Of a DNA stretch of 64,000 nt, positions 50,758 to 61,521 are shown piece by piece. Source of the stretch: Pandoraea pneumonica. Lineage in GTDB: Bacteria > Pseudomonadota > Gammaproteobacteria > Burkholderiales > Burkholderiaceae. The stretch is taken from NCBI RefSeq assembly GCF_902459645.1, contig NZ_CABPSK010000003.1, positions 372,001 through 436,000 of the forward strand, read 5' to 3'. The position numbers were made by a program, and so were the translations under genes. Position 1 is the stretch's first letter, and each line of letters starts with the position of its first letter. Under the pieces are notes generated by a model. The model ran no database searches and was not told where the DNA came from. It saw only the letters and a program-made list of their open reading frames with translations.

Positions 50758-50767
50758 TGCATGCTCC

Positions 50768-50928
50768 CCCGTCCCAATGTCCCAACGTCCCAAAGAAAAA
50801 ATGAATGCTTGGGTGTGTGCGCCTGCGACGCGGGCGACGTGCGCACTCTCGCCTGCACGTCGCACACGTCGCACGCATCACGCGCACGGAACCGTGGCGG
50901 CGCATGGGACATTGGGACATGGGACGGC
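50768..50928. repeat. inverted clusters of GGGAC iterons
   Basis: Three 8-9-bp copies of TGGGACR lie at 50768-50793 (complement strand) and three more in the opposite sense at 50904-50927, about 110 bases apart. Between them are short GCAC-GTCGCAC direct repeats. It sits between the primase-helicase gene and the Q-like gene. Iteron arrays near replication genes often mark phage origins. Confidence 0.6.
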
Positions 50929-50994
50929 GATTCAGCGCGCCGTTGTCCGCTGTCGCGCGCGCCAATGCCAGCGGTTAGGCGCGCCTCGCTCCGA

Positions 50995-53739
50995 TCAAAG
51001 CGGCACATCGTCGGCCTCGTCGTAAGTAACAGGCGGAGGCGGAGGCGTGGGCGCTACGGGTTCGGCTGGACGCTCGTAGTACCACTCACGTGCGCCGGTG
51101 CTCTCACGCTTACGCACCCAGCCGATAGACTTGAGAGCCTTGCCAACGCGCCGCTGCTCGGCCGGGGTCCACTTCGAAATGTCGAGCTTGAGCACGTCAG
51201 CCAGAATCTGCTCCGTAGTGATCTTGCTTTCGGACAGATGATGCAAATGCCGTGCGATCATCGTCTCGTACACGTCGCCTTCGTAACGCGCTTCTTGCTC
51301 AACAGAGAACAGAGGCTTTTCGTGGGCCAGCACCTGCCACGGCGTCGGCTGCATACCGCCCGCTTCGTCGTTCGCCTGCTCCCACTCCAGATACTCGGTA
51401 AATGCTTCGGCCCAAAGTTGATCGCGGTCGCGAGCAAGGCCAACGAAATCGATGACGTCAGCAGTCTTTACCGGCCAGTAGCGACGATTGCCGGACTCAT
51501 CCTTCAGGTACGCATCGAAGTTGACCGAGCCGCCGACAACCCACTGCCGTGGCACGTCGATAGCCCGCCGCCCATAGGGCGGGCGGAACGTATCAACCGC
51601 AGTCGTGAAGAACTTCTTAGCGAGCGACGAATCGGCTTTGTTCAACGCATCAAGCTCGGCCAGCTCAAGCACCCATTTGCCGTTCATCACGACATAGGTG
51701 TCTTTGTCGCCGATGTTGATATGGGCGTCTGTAAACCACTGCTGCCCGAAGAGCGTCGCGAACGTACGCGACTTACCTGCATCCTGCTTACCCTCCAAAA
51801 TGAGGATGTTGTCCATCTTGCAGCCGGGGCGCATCACACGGCCAACAGCGCCGAGCAGCCACTTGAACCCGACCAGACGCGCATACTCGGTATCCTCGAC
51901 GCCCAAGTAGTCGACGAGCCACGAGCGGAGGCGGCTCTTGCGATCCCAATTCGGGCGAACGGATTCCAAGTAGTCGCGCACGACGTGGTACGAGCTGCGC
52001 TCAGCGACTAGGAAAGCCGCCTCCATCGTTATGTCTTGCTTCGGACTGAATCCGTAGCGCTGGCCGAGCCACAGCACGCACCGGGCATCGTCGCGGTCGG
52101 TCCATTCGCCCTCGATGCCGCCTTCGTCGAAAGGAGGCGGCTTGAGCTTCATGACTCGACCGGAGAACTGCTCGAACCCGAGCACGCCCGCCCATGCCGG
52201 ATCGTTGAGCAGGATGGCGAATACGTTGTCGAGCGCCGGAAGTACAGCACCGGAATTGTCTGCGCGACGTAGCCGCGCCCGCCAATGCTCCTCTTCGTCG
52301 CCATCGCCTCGCATGGCTCCCGCTGCGCCAGCAGACGAAGGGGTAGCCGCCGATCCCGCAACCTTGCGTCGACCGTTGGCGTCCACAGCCGTGACGATAC
52401 GGCGATCTTCCATGACCTCCAAAAGTCGAGACGCGCGCGCGTACGAAATCGAAAGTAGCTTTTGCAGATGCCCAACCGTTGCGCGCCCGTGCTTCGTCAC
52501 CGCATCGACGGCTGATTCGTAGAGCGGATCGTCTTGCGTCTCAGCAGATTGCAGGTGCGCATACGGCGCGACGCTTGCTGGATCCGCCCCCATCGCAGCC
52601 AGTACCGCAGCGCTCACCTGCTGCCTGACCACATGCAAGCCCTCTTCGACATGCAAGTCGTTAAAGTCAGTCAGCTTTCGATCGCCACGTGCTTCGAACG
52701 CTGGATACGTCACGCTCGCGTTGCCCACTTCGGCTGCCGCTTCGTGAGCCGCTTTGCGGCCTGCGTTTGCAAATGACTTCGTGCGCGGCGCAGTGCTTGC
52801 ACCGGCCGTCGTAATCGTCGCAAGCAGCCACTCGACGGCAAAGGCGTCGGCCTTGCGTTCGATACGCACCTGCACTGCGGTTTCGCCGCGTTTGAGCGAG
52901 AGTGCGTCACCACCGATCTGCGGATCGCCTTCATATCCGAATTCGTCGGCCAACCAATCGCGCGCACGCTGCTCGATCTTCCAATCGTCATCGGCGAGAA
53001 ACAGCAGATGCGCGCCGGGATGGCTCTTGCGGAGACGCTTGGCGCTCTCCATCAGCCCGCCCGCGTCGAACGCGACCACGACCGGGATTGCATCCTCCAG
53101 CGCCATACGCACGGATCTGGCGGTCGCGTAGCCTTCGGCGATGCCGACGACCTGATCGTCGGCCGAGACACTACCGAGTTGGCAGGCGGTGCCCACCTTG
53201 TCCATACCCGCATTGAAGCGCTTAACGCCGTCCGGCGAGATCTTTTGCAGCCCCGCAAGGTGCTGCGTCTCTCCGTAGACGACCATGGGCACAAGAATTT
53301 GGCCTTCGGCATCTACGCGAACGCACTCGGGTGTGATCTGCTTTTTGTCGAAATAGGCTGACGCGACGGCATGCGCCTCTGCCGCGTCCCACTGTGCGTT
53401 TGCACGATTGGAGGCATTCTTTGCCGCTTTGGCCTTCTTTTCCGCCTCTGCTCGGGCAACATCCTCCTGACGGCGCTTGACCGCCGCGAGATCATCTGCC
53501 GTTACGGTTTCGCCAATCCACTCAAACTTTGTGGCCCCGTTATCGTGACCCGACCAGCATCCGTAGGCGCCGGTATGGCCGATCAAACGGCCGTCTCTCC
53601 ACACCTCATGCAAGGCGTACCAATACTTTTTGCCCTTCCCGTACCGATGGTGCTTGTCGTCAGCGATGGGGTGACCCTCGGGTAATGCCGGGTGACCCGC
53701 CGCCAACAGTTGCAGACGGATATCGTCAATACTTGCCAT
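50995..53739 (-). CDS. primase (Toprim)-FtsK gamma-VirE/D5-like helicase fusion
   Basis: A 914-aa replication protein. Zinc-like and Toprim region residues 30-280 (VVGIAEGYATARSVRMALED with the catalytic Glu, then LLFLADDDW); an FtsK gamma winged-helix domain residues 403-462 (DPLYESAVDAVTKHGRATVGHLQKLLSISYARASRLLEVMEDRRIVT); VirE/VapE-family helicase residues 480-800, Walker A GKQDAGKS at 650-657 and Walker B in VLELAELDAL. It would prime and unwind the phage origin. ATG 53739 is chosen. The FtsK gamma domain in the middle is unusual. Confidence 0.9.
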   Translation of the reverse strand: MASIDDIRLQLLAAGHPALPEGHPIADDKHHRYGKGKKYWYALHEVWRDGRLIGHTGAYGCWSGHDNGATKFEWIGETVTADDLAAVKRRQEDVARAEAEKKAKAAKNASNRANAQWDAAEAHAVASAYFDKKQITPECVRVDAEGQILVPMVVYGETQHLAGLQKISPDGVKRFNAGMDKVGTACQLGSVSADDQVVGIAEGYATARSVRMALEDAIPVVVAFDAGGLMESAKRLRKSHPGAHLLFLADDDWKIEQRARDWLADEFGYEGDPQIGGDALSLKRGETAVQVRIERKADAFAVEWLLATITTAGASTAPRTKSFANAGRKAAHEAAAEVGNASVTYPAFEARGDRKLTDFNDLHVEEGLHVVRQQVSAAVLAAMGADPASVAPYAHLQSAETQDDPLYESAVDAVTKHGRATVGHLQKLLSISYARASRLLEVMEDRRIVTAVDANGRRKVAGSAATPSSAGAAGAMRGDGDEEEHWRARLRRADNSGAVLPALDNVFAILLNDPAWAGVLGFEQFSGRVMKLKPPPFDEGGIEGEWTDRDDARCVLWLGQRYGFSPKQDITMEAAFLVAERSSYHVVRDYLESVRPNWDRKSRLRSWLVDYLGVEDTEYARLVGFKWLLGAVGRVMRPGCKMDNILILEGKQDAGKSRTFATLFGQQWFTDAHINIGDKDTYVVMNGKWVLELAELDALNKADSSLAKKFFTTAVDTFRPPYGRRAIDVPRQWVVGGSVNFDAYLKDESGNRRYWPVKTADVIDFVGLARDRDQLWAEAFTEYLEWEQANDEAGGMQPTPWQVLAHEKPLFSVEQEARYEGDVYETMIARHLHHLSESKITTEQILADVLKLDISKWTPAEQRRVGKALKSIGWVRKRESTGAREWYYERPAEPVAPTPPPPPVTYDEADDVPL

Positions 53740-56831: not shown

Positions 56832-57224
56832 ATGACCAAGCCTTTCATTCTCCCCGGCCCGGACCGGGATCAACGTTCCGACACGATCAGTCTCATGAGT
56901 ACCACGAGCTACGATCCCGCTGCCCCGCGTCCAACCACGCCGCTGCTGATCGGCAAGTACGTCGTCTATCGCAAGCCGCTCGCTGGCACGCCGCTTACCG
57001 TCTACATGATCATGTTCGGCAACGTTGTCGCGGGGACTCAGGTATCCCTGCCGACCAAGGCCGATTGCGACACCGCCACGAAGCGACACCGCGCCGCACT
57101 TGAGGCGCGCGCTGCCGAGCAAGCCGCACGCGATGCACAGATCGCGGAGCGGGATGCGAAGCGAAAAGAAGCGATGGACAAGCGCAAGGCAGCGAACGCC
57201 GCACGCGCAAAGGTGGCCGCATGA
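56832..57224 (+). CDS. phage protein with charged helical tail, unknown function
   Basis: A 130-aa protein. N-terminal half has a small beta unit (LIGKYVVYRKPLAGTPLTVYMIMFGNVVAGTQV), the C-terminal half a long Ala/Lys/Arg helix (ALEARAAEQAARDAQIAERDAKRKEAMDKRKAANAARAK). Its stop overlaps the ParB-like start. Perhaps a DNA or partner-binding part of the same system. Confidence 0.6.
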   Translation: MTKPFILPGPDRDQRSDTISLMSTTSYDPAAPRPTTPLLIGKYVVYRKPLAGTPLTVYMIMFGNVVAGTQVSLPTKADCDTATKRHRAALEARAAEQAARDAQIAERDAKRKEAMDKRKAANAARAKVAA

Positions 57225-58516
57225 TCGACTCACGCCAAACTGATCTAGCTGCCGAGCCGATCATCACAGGCAACACGAAGGCCGCCGTGAAGGAAGCAGG
57301 AGGCGGTTCCTCCGACTTGTGGATCATCGATCCCCGAAAAGTCTTTCACGACCCGCGTGACAATGCGCGCCCCCTCGACTACGAACGCGTTGCCCACCTT
57401 ACCGCGCTCATGCTCGCCAACGGCTTTGACAAGACGAAGCCCATCGGCTGCTTCGTGCGCAAGGTTGGCGACGAGAATCGCATCTACGTTCATGACGGGC
57501 AGCATCGTCACTTTGCCGCGATTGCGGCAATGGACTCAGGGAAGTGGTCGCGACCAGAGATCGTCTTTGATCGCGTGCCGCTCATCATCCGGGATGCCCG
57601 GACGGTTGATCGCCGGACATTAATCATCACCGGCATTACAGCCAATGATGGCGAAAGACTCACCCCACTCGAACTTGGCGGGCGCATCGCAGAATTGCAA
57701 CGAGAGGGGATGACACAGGCCGAGATCTGCGCCGCACTGAACATCACCGGCCAGACTGTGCGCGACGTCATGCTGTTGCTCGATGCTCCGACCGAACTGC
57801 ATACGCTCATTCGCGACAAGGCGATCACGTCGACGCTTGCCATCAAGACGATTCGAGACGTTGGCCCGAGCAAAGCTCTTGGCGTCATCGAAAAGGCGCT
57901 CTCCGTCGCTACCGAACAGGGGCGAACCAAGGTTACGCAAAAGAACCTTGACCTGCCCAACAAGCCGAACGAGAAAAGCTCACCCAAACCCGCCGCCGAG
58001 AAAACTAAAGGAACAAGCGCTATTGGCGATGCGTTCGCAAAGCAACTTTTGTTTGCTACCGTCGCCGCGTACAGCAGTCCGACGTTCGGCGAGGACTCCC
58101 CGGGCTTTGTCGAAATATCCACGGTGCTTTCGACGTTCTGCCGCATCCACTCGACAACCGACGATGAGGCCCCCGTGGCTGTAGCGCACGAATACGGCAT
58201 GCTCGATAGTCGGGCAACCGAATTCATTCGCTCGCCCAAATGGGCTGGAAGCTACGTAGAAATTAACGTCGCGCGTGGCGAGTCGGGCAAGTGGTACTCA
58301 TCACGGTCTTATCAGATCGGCACGACATATCAGGGCGGCCCTGTGTCGCATCATGGCACCGGGCATTCAACGCGCCGTCTCGCCATTGCGGCAGGCGCCG
58401 TCGCACTCGCCGACCAACTGCGACACAACCAATTCACCCGCGACAACAAGCACACTCACCGAGCCGTCAACTGGCTCGAAGAGCTTGCCGTACGCGCACT
58501 CACGGGGGCCGTTTGA
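57221..58516 (+). CDS. ParB/Spo0J N-terminal-domain protein
   Basis: A 431-aa protein. ParB-like N-domain around residues 30-110 (WIIDPRKVFHDPRDNARPLDYERVAHLTALMLANG, PIGCFVRKVGDENRIYVHDGQHRHFAAI, the box that in chromosomal ParB binds CTP), a HTH near residues 150-190 (REGMTQAEICAALNITGQTVRDVMLLLDAPTELHTLIRDKAITSTLAIKTI), and a C-terminal 200 residues with no clear match. No ParA partner is present, so plasmid-like partition is not shown; regulation or DNA loading is as likely. Overlaps its neighbour by four bases. Confidence 0.82.
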   Translation: MIDSRQTDLAAEPIITGNTKAAVKEAGGGSSDLWIIDPRKVFHDPRDNARPLDYERVAHLTALMLANGFDKTKPIGCFVRKVGDENRIYVHDGQHRHFAAIAAMDSGKWSRPEIVFDRVPLIIRDARTVDRRTLIITGITANDGERLTPLELGGRIAELQREGMTQAEICAALNITGQTVRDVMLLLDAPTELHTLIRDKAITSTLAIKTIRDVGPSKALGVIEKALSVATEQGRTKVTQKNLDLPNKPNEKSSPKPAAEKTKGTSAIGDAFAKQLLFATVAAYSSPTFGEDSPGFVEISTVLSTFCRIHSTTDDEAPVAVAHEYGMLDSRATEFIRSPKWAGSYVEINVARGESGKWYSSRSYQIGTTYQGGPVSHHGTGHSTRRLAIAAGAVALADQLRHNQFTRDNKHTHRAVNWLEELAVRALTGAV

Positions 58517-60071: not shown

Positions 60072-60393
60072 AACGTTCAACATCGCGGAGTGTGCACAGT
60101 TTCTCCACATCCACGAATCGACCGCGCAGGATCTCGCAAAGGCTGGCGAGCTTCCCGGCTGCCAGATCGGGCGGGCGTGGGTATTCCTAGTGGACGATCT
60201 TGTCGCATATCTGCGCGACCAAGTGCGCACGCAGCAAATGCAGCGACTGGCCGAGCAAGAGGTTTCACGTGGGATCGACGCGGCAACGGCACGTATTCCG
60301 CCTACGCCGATCCCGCGCCCTGCTCGCAAGGCCCGAGCAAAACGCGTGTATCAGCCTTTACCAGAGGTGAGTAGCCAAGTTGCTTGCGCGTAG
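60064..60393 (+). CDS. excisionase-like HTH_17 protein
   Basis: A 109-aa protein from GTG 60064. Residues 5-50 form a winged-helix of the excisionase type (FNIAECAQFLHIHESTAQDLAKAGELPGCQIGRAWVFLVDDLVAYL). It ends inside the integrase gene on the other strand, next to attR, fitting Xis or a directionality factor. Basic proline-rich tail. Confidence 0.75.
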   Translation: MSRTFNIAECAQFLHIHESTAQDLAKAGELPGCQIGRAWVFLVDDLVAYLRDQVRTQQMQRLAEQEVSRGIDAATARIPPTPIPRPARKARAKRVYQPLPEVSSQVACA

Positions 60394-61521
60394 GTTCGCG
60401 TACCGACTCAGCATGCGCGGGTCTTTATGGCCCGTGATCTTTGATATCTGCAAGTCCGAGAGCTGCGTCCGCTCGTAAAGGCGCGACGTAGCCTCATGCC
60501 TCAAGTCGTGAAACCGGATCTCGCCGCACTTCGCCATATCGAACACGCGCGAGTATTGCCGGGATAGCAGCGACGTCACCCTCGCCAGCTCCACGCGAGA
60601 GACTTCACCAGACCACCACGGGAACAGCCGGACGTCGGCCGCGTAGCCTTCCATGCCTCGCGTGCCGCCGTCGACGTGCGCGAGGTATTCCCCGAGCACC
60701 CGCACGGCCACACTCGAAAGCGGCACCTGTCGCCTGTCACCGTTCTTCGTCTTGTCGAGAAAGATCGTACGCGCGGCAATGTCGATCTGATCTTGTGAAA
60801 GCGTGAATATCTCGCGCATGCGCATGGCCGTCTCTAACGCCAGGTCGAACATGCATTCGAGCGCAGCGCGATAGGCGAGCGCCAACGGCCGCTCACGATC
60901 CTCGCGCTTCTCCCCGTTCAACACCGCACGAATTGCGGCCTCCTGCTTCGCGTCTAGCCGCTGCTCGCGCGATTCGTCACGCTTAGCCGCCTTCCCCTTT
61001 CCGACCGCAGCGAGATAGGCCACGTCGGCGTCAGAGTAGGTCGCGTAACGCTTGGGCAGCAATCCGAGCGGGTTAATCACCAGCTCAGGGTATTGGCCGG
61101 ATCTGCACGCCCACGCGAAACACCGACTGAGCGCCCCGACGTAATGGCGGATCGTCGACGGTGCGAGATTCTGCTCGCGCTTCATGTCGGACACCCAACG
61201 TTCGACCCACTTGTAGTCGAGCGTCAGTAGCGGCGTTTTGCCGAGACGCGCGTGAATGACGTTTAGCAGCGCTCGATCTTCGTCAGGCACATGCAAAGCA
61301 ACTTGGTATGCACGATTCAGTTCGGCGAGCGTCAACTTACCGGCCGCAGTCGGCGCAAACTCTTCGGGCACGACACCCGCATCGAGCAGCGCTTCGAGAC
61401 GGCGCACATACTCGTCGCCCTCGGCCTCGCTCTCAAATCGCAGATAGATTGGTTTGGGCAGCAGAGCGCTGCGCTTTACGACGTACTCCCACGTACTACC
61501 CCGAAGCCTTTTAGTTGCCAT
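60358..61521 (-). CDS. int: tyrosine-type phage integrase
   Basis: A 387-aa recombinase. The catalytic set is Arg234 (ETAMRMRE), Lys259 (DKTKNG), His338 and Arg341 (RFHDLRHEA), His365 (ITGHKD) and Tyr374 (LSRYANL). The N-terminal domain is a basic arm/core-binding region (MATKRLRGSTWEYVVKRSALLPKPIYLRF). It integrates the phage in tRNA-Cys. It lies 158 bases from attR. Confidence 0.95.
   Translation of the reverse strand: MATKRLRGSTWEYVVKRSALLPKPIYLRFESEAEGDEYVRRLEALLDAGVVPEEFAPTAAGKLTLAELNRAYQVALHVPDEDRALLNVIHARLGKTPLLTLDYKWVERWVSDMKREQNLAPSTIRHYVGALSRCFAWACRSGQYPELVINPLGLLPKRYATYSDADVAYLAAVGKGKAAKRDESREQRLDAKQEAAIRAVLNGEKREDRERPLALAYRAALECMFDLALETAMRMREIFTLSQDQIDIAARTIFLDKTKNGDRRQVPLSSVAVRVLGEYLAHVDGGTRGMEGYAADVRLFPWWSGEVSRVELARVTSLLSRQYSRVFDMAKCGEIRFHDLRHEATSRLYERTQLSDLQISKITGHKDPRMLSRYANLRASNLATHLW

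Follow-up and report, generated by a model that had tools for sequence, protein, structure and literature searches.

What does a domain of FtsK do inside a phage replication protein? The question is raised by a gene at 50995..53739 (minus strand, ATG at 53739 and stop at 50995) in a 64-kb stretch of the Pandoraea pneumonica genome (contig NZ_CABPSK010000003.1, positions 372,001 to 436,000; hereafter the window), which encodes a 914-aa prophage protein with a Toprim-like primase half, an FtsK gamma domain and a VapE-like helicase. A preliminary description of the locus had suggested that gamma, which in bacteria reads FtsK orienting polar sequences (KOPS), could direct the protein to certain phage or host DNA sites, for example the GGGAC repeats beside the gene, or load the helicase. 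Our results point to a different role. In the best reading, towards which the evidence tilts slightly, this protein initiates replication of the phage and joins the Toprim half, gamma, the VapE-like helicase and a conserved C-terminal domain, with gamma, taken over from FtsK, as an accessory grip on double-stranded DNA. The KOPS/XerD-type specificity of gamma has probably been altered or relaxed in this phage, as judged from its residues and from motif counts.

An FtsK gamma domain at the primase-helicase joint

Nearly the whole protein (residues 22-893) is matched by PHROG 2249 'DNA primase' (E 6.7e-163). Gamma occupies residues 402-461 (52357..52536, minus strand), where the Pfam scan gives PF09397 FtsK_gamma 54.3 bits against a cut-off of 30.6 (E 1.1e-14), and a genome-wide search for FtsK_gamma recovers the domain at the same place. 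When the isolated region was compared with the PDB, seven distinct sequences matched at E up to 1. Six of them hold FtsK gamma, with 2j5o (E 1.2e-10) and 2ve8/2ve9 (1.3e-10) as the best, and the seventh is a ribosomal protein (E 0.72). When a profile of 22 gamma segments was set against one built from four FtsK gamma domains, the match had 99.9% probability (E 3.3e-31), and PF09397 matched every one of the 22 rows scanned, out of the 26 gamma-bearing rows described below. The domain that the preliminary description had placed between the Toprim half and the helicase was thus borne out by the Pfam scan and by the PDB search, and the profile comparison it had called for gave a significant match. 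By these matches gamma is an FtsK-family module at the primase-helicase joint, and its fold is predicted to be a winged helix by homology to the solved FtsK gamma domains. The FtsK alpha/beta motor domains (PF17854, PF01580) are absent from the 914-aa protein in a Pfam scan at E up to 1, and the same library detects both in the host FtsK (L001).

On the N-terminal side of gamma lies a Toprim-like stretch (residues 198-254, 52978..53148, minus strand), for which Toprim_3 (PF13362) scores 14.6 bits, below the cut-off of 27.2; the homologous protein of Pseudomonas phage Haddon (L114) reaches 31.2 bits, above it. The VapE-like helicase domain on the other side (residues 592-788, 51376..51966, minus strand) is matched by PF05272 with E 4.8e-70 (235.8 bits, cut-off 25), and PDB 7pds, 'Similar to D. 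nodosus vapE', covers residues 485-759 (E 3.9e-44). The protein ends in a conserved domain (residues 825-890, 51070..51267, minus strand) with 10 invariant columns over 12 rows, which is conserved in proteins with and without gamma alike and is a candidate for origin binding.

Three places in the host genome carry FtsK_gamma: the primase and two other long frames, one of 827 and one of 1337 aa, the former of which also bears FtsK motor domains in the Pfam scan. The gamma of the window primase is 47% identical to the gamma of FtsK in the same genome. Among 25 of the 26 gamma rows compared with the host FtsK gamma (all but L042), the window protein and its two nearest relatives are the farthest from it (43-50% identity), and the other 22 lie at 53-72%.

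Gain, loss and maintenance of gamma among relatives

To place gamma within its family, relatives were gathered from species genomes (30 loci), from IMG/VR (the best 80 of 148) and from two phage records, and removal of identical proteins left 106 distinct rows, counting the window protein. The two phage records were taken from 1011 that match the 914-aa protein, none of which covers 80% of it. Gamma is present in 26 of the 106 rows. A six-frame profile search of the 106 loci found it in all 26 of these and in one of the 80 others; this sole match, L032, which had appeared to be a distant gamma primase, turned out to be a bacterial (Planctomycetota) FtsK and was rejected. These 80 others include some incomplete rows and rows whose helicase is of a different type (L025-L033). 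The gamma-less rows from Burkholderiaceae are the same protein: in those that BLAST broke into two pieces, each flank shares about 48-59% identity with the query. Among the matches listed for 100 sampled Burkholderiaceae genomes, open frames of 917-951 aa compatible with the primase are seen in the present genome and in the top four matches from other ones.

A tree was made by a quick method from 97 rows (26 with and 71 without gamma), with the gamma region excluded and with nine rows (L025-L033) set aside as partial, of another helicase type or outside the family. It requires at least four gains or losses of gamma, and its most distant rows (L114, L022, L115 and L078) are without the domain. 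Six gamma-less proteins (L050, L051, L056, L062, L080 and L084) retain the wing end of gamma and two more (L049, L053) the linker that precedes it, as seen by eye in the alignment; at the DNA level, L050 and L051 are joined in frame at the point where L071 carries gamma. These scars indicate that some of the losses are real, as in-frame deletions. Gamma sits at the same joint in L139 and L157, members of a related family of primases whose helicase is of the DUF5906 type, and L025 and L028 of this kind are without it. From this distribution, gamma is a modular extra that has been gained and lost among close relatives. Helicase loading by gamma, one of the roles proposed in the preliminary description, cannot be general on this evidence, because 71 of the 97 full-length tree rows are without the domain. 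Close phages that differ in gamma (L071 and L082 with it, L050, L051 and others without) form natural sets in which its contribution to the initiator is directly testable.

Where it is present, gamma looks to be maintained by purifying selection. The pooled ratio of nonsynonymous to synonymous substitution (dN/dS) is 0.119 for gamma, 0.094 for the Toprim half, 0.050 for the helicase and 0.405 for the linker after gamma, in 17 close pairs that were hand-picked and non-independent; synonymous divergence is high in many of these pairs.

What gamma may recognise: repeats, KOPS or XerD

Directly 3' of the gene lies an intergenic, origin-like region (50758..50994, minus strand) with inverted sets of three GTCCCA / TGGGAC repeats, supported by hairpin folding, alignment and repeat counts. 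By motif count, three TGGGAC copies stand on the plus strand at 50905..50925 and three on the minus strand at 50771..50792, the latter with 8-bp spacing. TGGGAC is rarer in the window than expected by shuffling (18 observed vs 25.7), and six of the 18 copies are packed into the 155 bp from 50771 to 50925. The region can fold into a long hairpin (z -5.41 vs 200 shuffles), and repeats and hairpin together align well across nine phages with and six without gamma. We also observed GCGCGC boxes in 50758-50994, and the region is a good candidate for a phage replication origin. Within 420 bases 3' of the primase, both repeat orientations are found in 25 of 26 loci with gamma and in 15 of 18 without it, the latter taken from the 71 gamma-less tree rows. 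The exceptions are L042, which has GTCCC in place of GTCCCA, and three distant loci, L114, L022 and L115, which are without the right-hand set; among the gamma-less loci that keep both orientations are L050, L055, L072 and L019. Since the repeats are kept where gamma is missing, gamma is not required for the repeat region, and we rejected it as a required reader of the GGGAC repeats, a role that the preliminary description had offered as an example. The conserved repeats and hairpin adjoin the gene in the manner of initiators with a downstream origin, and their activity as an origin is putative.

The contact surface of gamma can be compared with that of FtsK itself. According to PMC5052618, FtsK gamma contacts XerD through Q1288, R1289, R1292, I1293, G1294 and N1296, and all six belong to the larger set of its residues that touch KOPS DNA. 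These contacts are a property of FtsK function and do not enter into how Pfam defines the domain. In the window protein the six positions read Q, K, S, I, S and A, so that two of six are kept (Q1288 and I1293) and four are changed (R1289K, R1292S, G1294S and N1296A). R1300 and E1303, which we take to be KOPS contacts of FtsK gamma, are both kept.

The setting of the gene bears on XerD as well. The prophage would extend over approximately 23859-61521 of the window, as derived from an identical IMG/VR contig (L034), and a gene for a tyrosine integrase (60358-61521) stands at the right edge. We also observed a ParB-like partition protein at 57221-58516, inside the prophage span (PHROG 1033, E 6.4e-47). 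No match to a dif-like pattern was found in the 64-kb window at up to 3 mismatches. The host has a dif-like site at G000:C1:979787-979806 with one mismatch to the typed pattern, and a reversed control pattern gave none. Integration of the prophage by Xer recombination was ruled out, given its own tyrosine integrase, a window without a dif-like site and a host dif-like site elsewhere.

In the mechanism that we propose, the C-terminal domain would recognise the downstream hairpin and repeats and the helicase would assemble there, by analogy with known initiators. Gamma, at the joint between primase and helicase, would provide an additional, optional point of contact with double-stranded DNA and so help the initiator or the helicase to hold the duplex. 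We infer that origin recognition is independent of gamma and more likely made by the C-terminal domain on the downstream repeats, again by analogy. Several observations weigh against this account. The C-terminal domain is without a convincing solved relative (the PDB search gave four matches, best E 0.097, which were taken as chance), and a winged-helix, origin-binding role for it is drawn from analogy. Covariation in the hairpin is slight, with a two-sided change in 2 of 44 pairs and a covariation term of -0.34, because the base pairs are mostly invariant; the hairpin is thus backed by conservation and folding energy and hardly by covariation. At least two exact TGGGAC copies are found in 25 of 26 loci with gamma vs 10 of 18 without. 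The KOPS motif GGGNAGGG, counted in stretches of up to about 15 kb that surround the primase in 26 loci with and 68 without gamma, has an observed-to-expected ratio (O/E) on the primase strand of 1.87 in the former vs 1.00 in the latter, and on the other strand of 1.25 vs 0.22. Further, most gamma-bearing relatives retain the KOPS/XerD surface: in the 26 rows Q1288 is kept in 26, R1289 in 24, R1292 in 16, I1293 in 24, G1294 in 23, N1296 in 20, R1297 in 26 and R1300 in 19. Such retention hints that recognition of a specific target remains important in the family. Taken together, the residues suggest that the FtsK surface is still usable across the family in general and has been changed in the lineage of the window protein.

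The last two of these points speak for a reading in which gamma recognises polarised, KOPS-like sites in the DNA of phage or host and so orients or loads the primase-helicase, as in FtsK, where binding of gamma to KOPS leads to loading of the motor (PMC5052618). However, the excess is not particular to KOPS. Four control motifs of like make-up have O/E values on the primase strand of 1.30-2.10 in loci with gamma and 0.84-1.61 in those without; two of them, GGNGAGGG (1.99) and AGGNGGGG (2.10), are raised in the former as much as GGGNAGGG. The P. aeruginosa form of KOPS, GGGCAGGG, reaches only 1.05 with gamma (0.98 without), and the values are 2.17 and 1.73 for GAGNAGGG and 0.64 and 0.13 for GAGAAGGG. 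In the prophage GGGNAGGG occurs three times on the primase strand and not at all on the other, at chance level against simulated expectations of 3.0 and 0.6. No specific KOPS excess was therefore found in the prophage or in the loci with gamma, where scrambled controls were equally raised, and we take the counts as no specific signal, short of proof of absence. With N1296, G1294 and R1292 lost in the window copy, KOPS reading is improbable here, and this part of the preliminary description did not hold up for this phage: the motif is at chance, its excess lies within the controls and the contact surface is eroded. The same surface could instead bind host XerD, or compete with FtsK for it, and tie phage replication to dimer resolution or chromosome segregation. 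The XerD-contact residues (Table 1 of PMC5052618) are mostly kept in the gamma-bearing relatives and the host does have a dif-like site (G000:C1:979787), but four of the six contact positions are lost in the window copy, and the prophage has its own integrase at its edge in a window without a dif-like match. We consider this reading still less probable than recognition of KOPS.

That gamma reads the adjoining TGGGAC repeats would fit their clustering and conservation beside the gene and the larger share of gamma-bearing loci with two or more exact copies, but the persistence of both orientations in most gamma-less loci makes this very improbable. Alternatively, gamma may be a passing insertion of little function that is tolerated in a flexible linker. 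Its repeated loss, in-frame deletions with scars included, is in line with such a view; its dN/dS, near that of the Toprim half and well under that of the linker, and its presence at the same joint in the DUF5906-helicase primases argue against it, and we regard such an insertion as improbable. An accessory grip on duplex DNA, gained and lost as a module and kept by selection where present, therefore remains our preferred reading of gamma.

Gamma in other phage proteins and comparison with known systems

Gamma peptide patterns picked out 495 IMG/VR loci, and the best 80 of these, which comprise 71 distinct open reading frames, were surveyed for a wider picture. The best reference was RdgC for 51 of the 80 loci, the present kind of primase for 17 and a 329-aa phage protein for one, with none for 11; at least two of the loci (L120 and L127) share contigs with L041 and L044. 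Conservation of the contact surface in these 80 was excluded as evidence because the loci had been selected by peptide patterns derived from that surface. Phage RdgC with a C-terminal FtsK gamma was confirmed by Pfam in all four samples (L116, L117, L136 and L161). Other arrangements were also observed. In L175:2748-3683 gamma accompanies a stretch that resembles DNA polymerase III beta and scores just below cut-off. In L189:1464-7166 gamma lies in a 1901-aa open reading frame, possibly for a polyvalent protein, in which a DNA methylase match stays sub-threshold. A phage protein of 518 aa (L141:2547-4100) has two stretches of FtsK gamma. Among 50,697 annotated phage records, 251 are matched by the gamma query at E up to 0.01.

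Published precedents exist for gamma outside FtsK. PMC8190038 describes a small terminase with N-terminal FtsK_gamma in Bacillus phages Sam46 and Sam112, as well as stand-alone phage gamma genes of unknown role. The FtsK winged helix-turn-helix is listed among the double-stranded-DNA-binding parts of polyvalent phage and plasmid proteins, with a Cupriavidus example named (PMC5512222), and cluster J mycobacteriophages have phage FtsK proteins with divergent gamma domains (PMC3706429). We found no published FtsK gamma within a phage primase and no published phage RdgC-FtsK gamma combination in the literature searched, which leaves out most subscription papers. Gamma in phage proteins is accordingly filed here as already known, with the primase-helicase version as a new variant, in which the chromosome-steering domain of FtsK is reused inside phage replication proteins. 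A broader view, which we hold as doubtful, is that gamma is a shared address module which phages have repeatedly attached to proteins of replication and recombination, namely primase-helicases, RdgC, a clamp-like protein and terminase. With it, these proteins would recruit XerD or read the polarity signals in the DNA of host or phage, and the present copy would have moved to a new target. If the wider pattern of RdgC, primase and terminase does mean a shared target, it would indicate that phage DNA metabolism is tied to host chromosome segregation in a new way.

Compared with known systems, the layout of gene and repeats resembles that of pRN1, for which the origin is a stem-loop directly downstream of the rep gene, a plan also proposed for some phages, and P4 alpha binds its origin repeats with a winged helix (PMC4234260). 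The pRN1 protein ORF904 differs in that its primase is not of the Toprim type and its origin is without iterons, and the part of that account consulted mentions no FtsK gamma for either P4 alpha or pRN1. The VapE-like helicase 7pds is homologous to the helicase part of the window protein only, over the residues given above. The small terminase of Sam46 and Sam112 is, like the window protein, a phage DNA-handling protein fused to FtsK gamma; it differs in being a packaging protein with an N-terminal gamma in phages of Bacillus hosts. In polyvalent proteins the FtsK winged helix is likewise an infrequent double-stranded-DNA-binding module of mobile-element proteins, but these have 2 to 15 domains, and the available part of PMC5512222 does not mention a primase-helicase with an internal gamma. 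The closest comparison is with FtsK gamma itself (PF09397; PDB 2ve8/2ve9, 2j5o and 2j5p), to whose sequence family the window gamma belongs. Unlike in FtsK, the window gamma stands without a motor, is embedded in a primase-helicase and has changed at four of the six positions that contact XerD.

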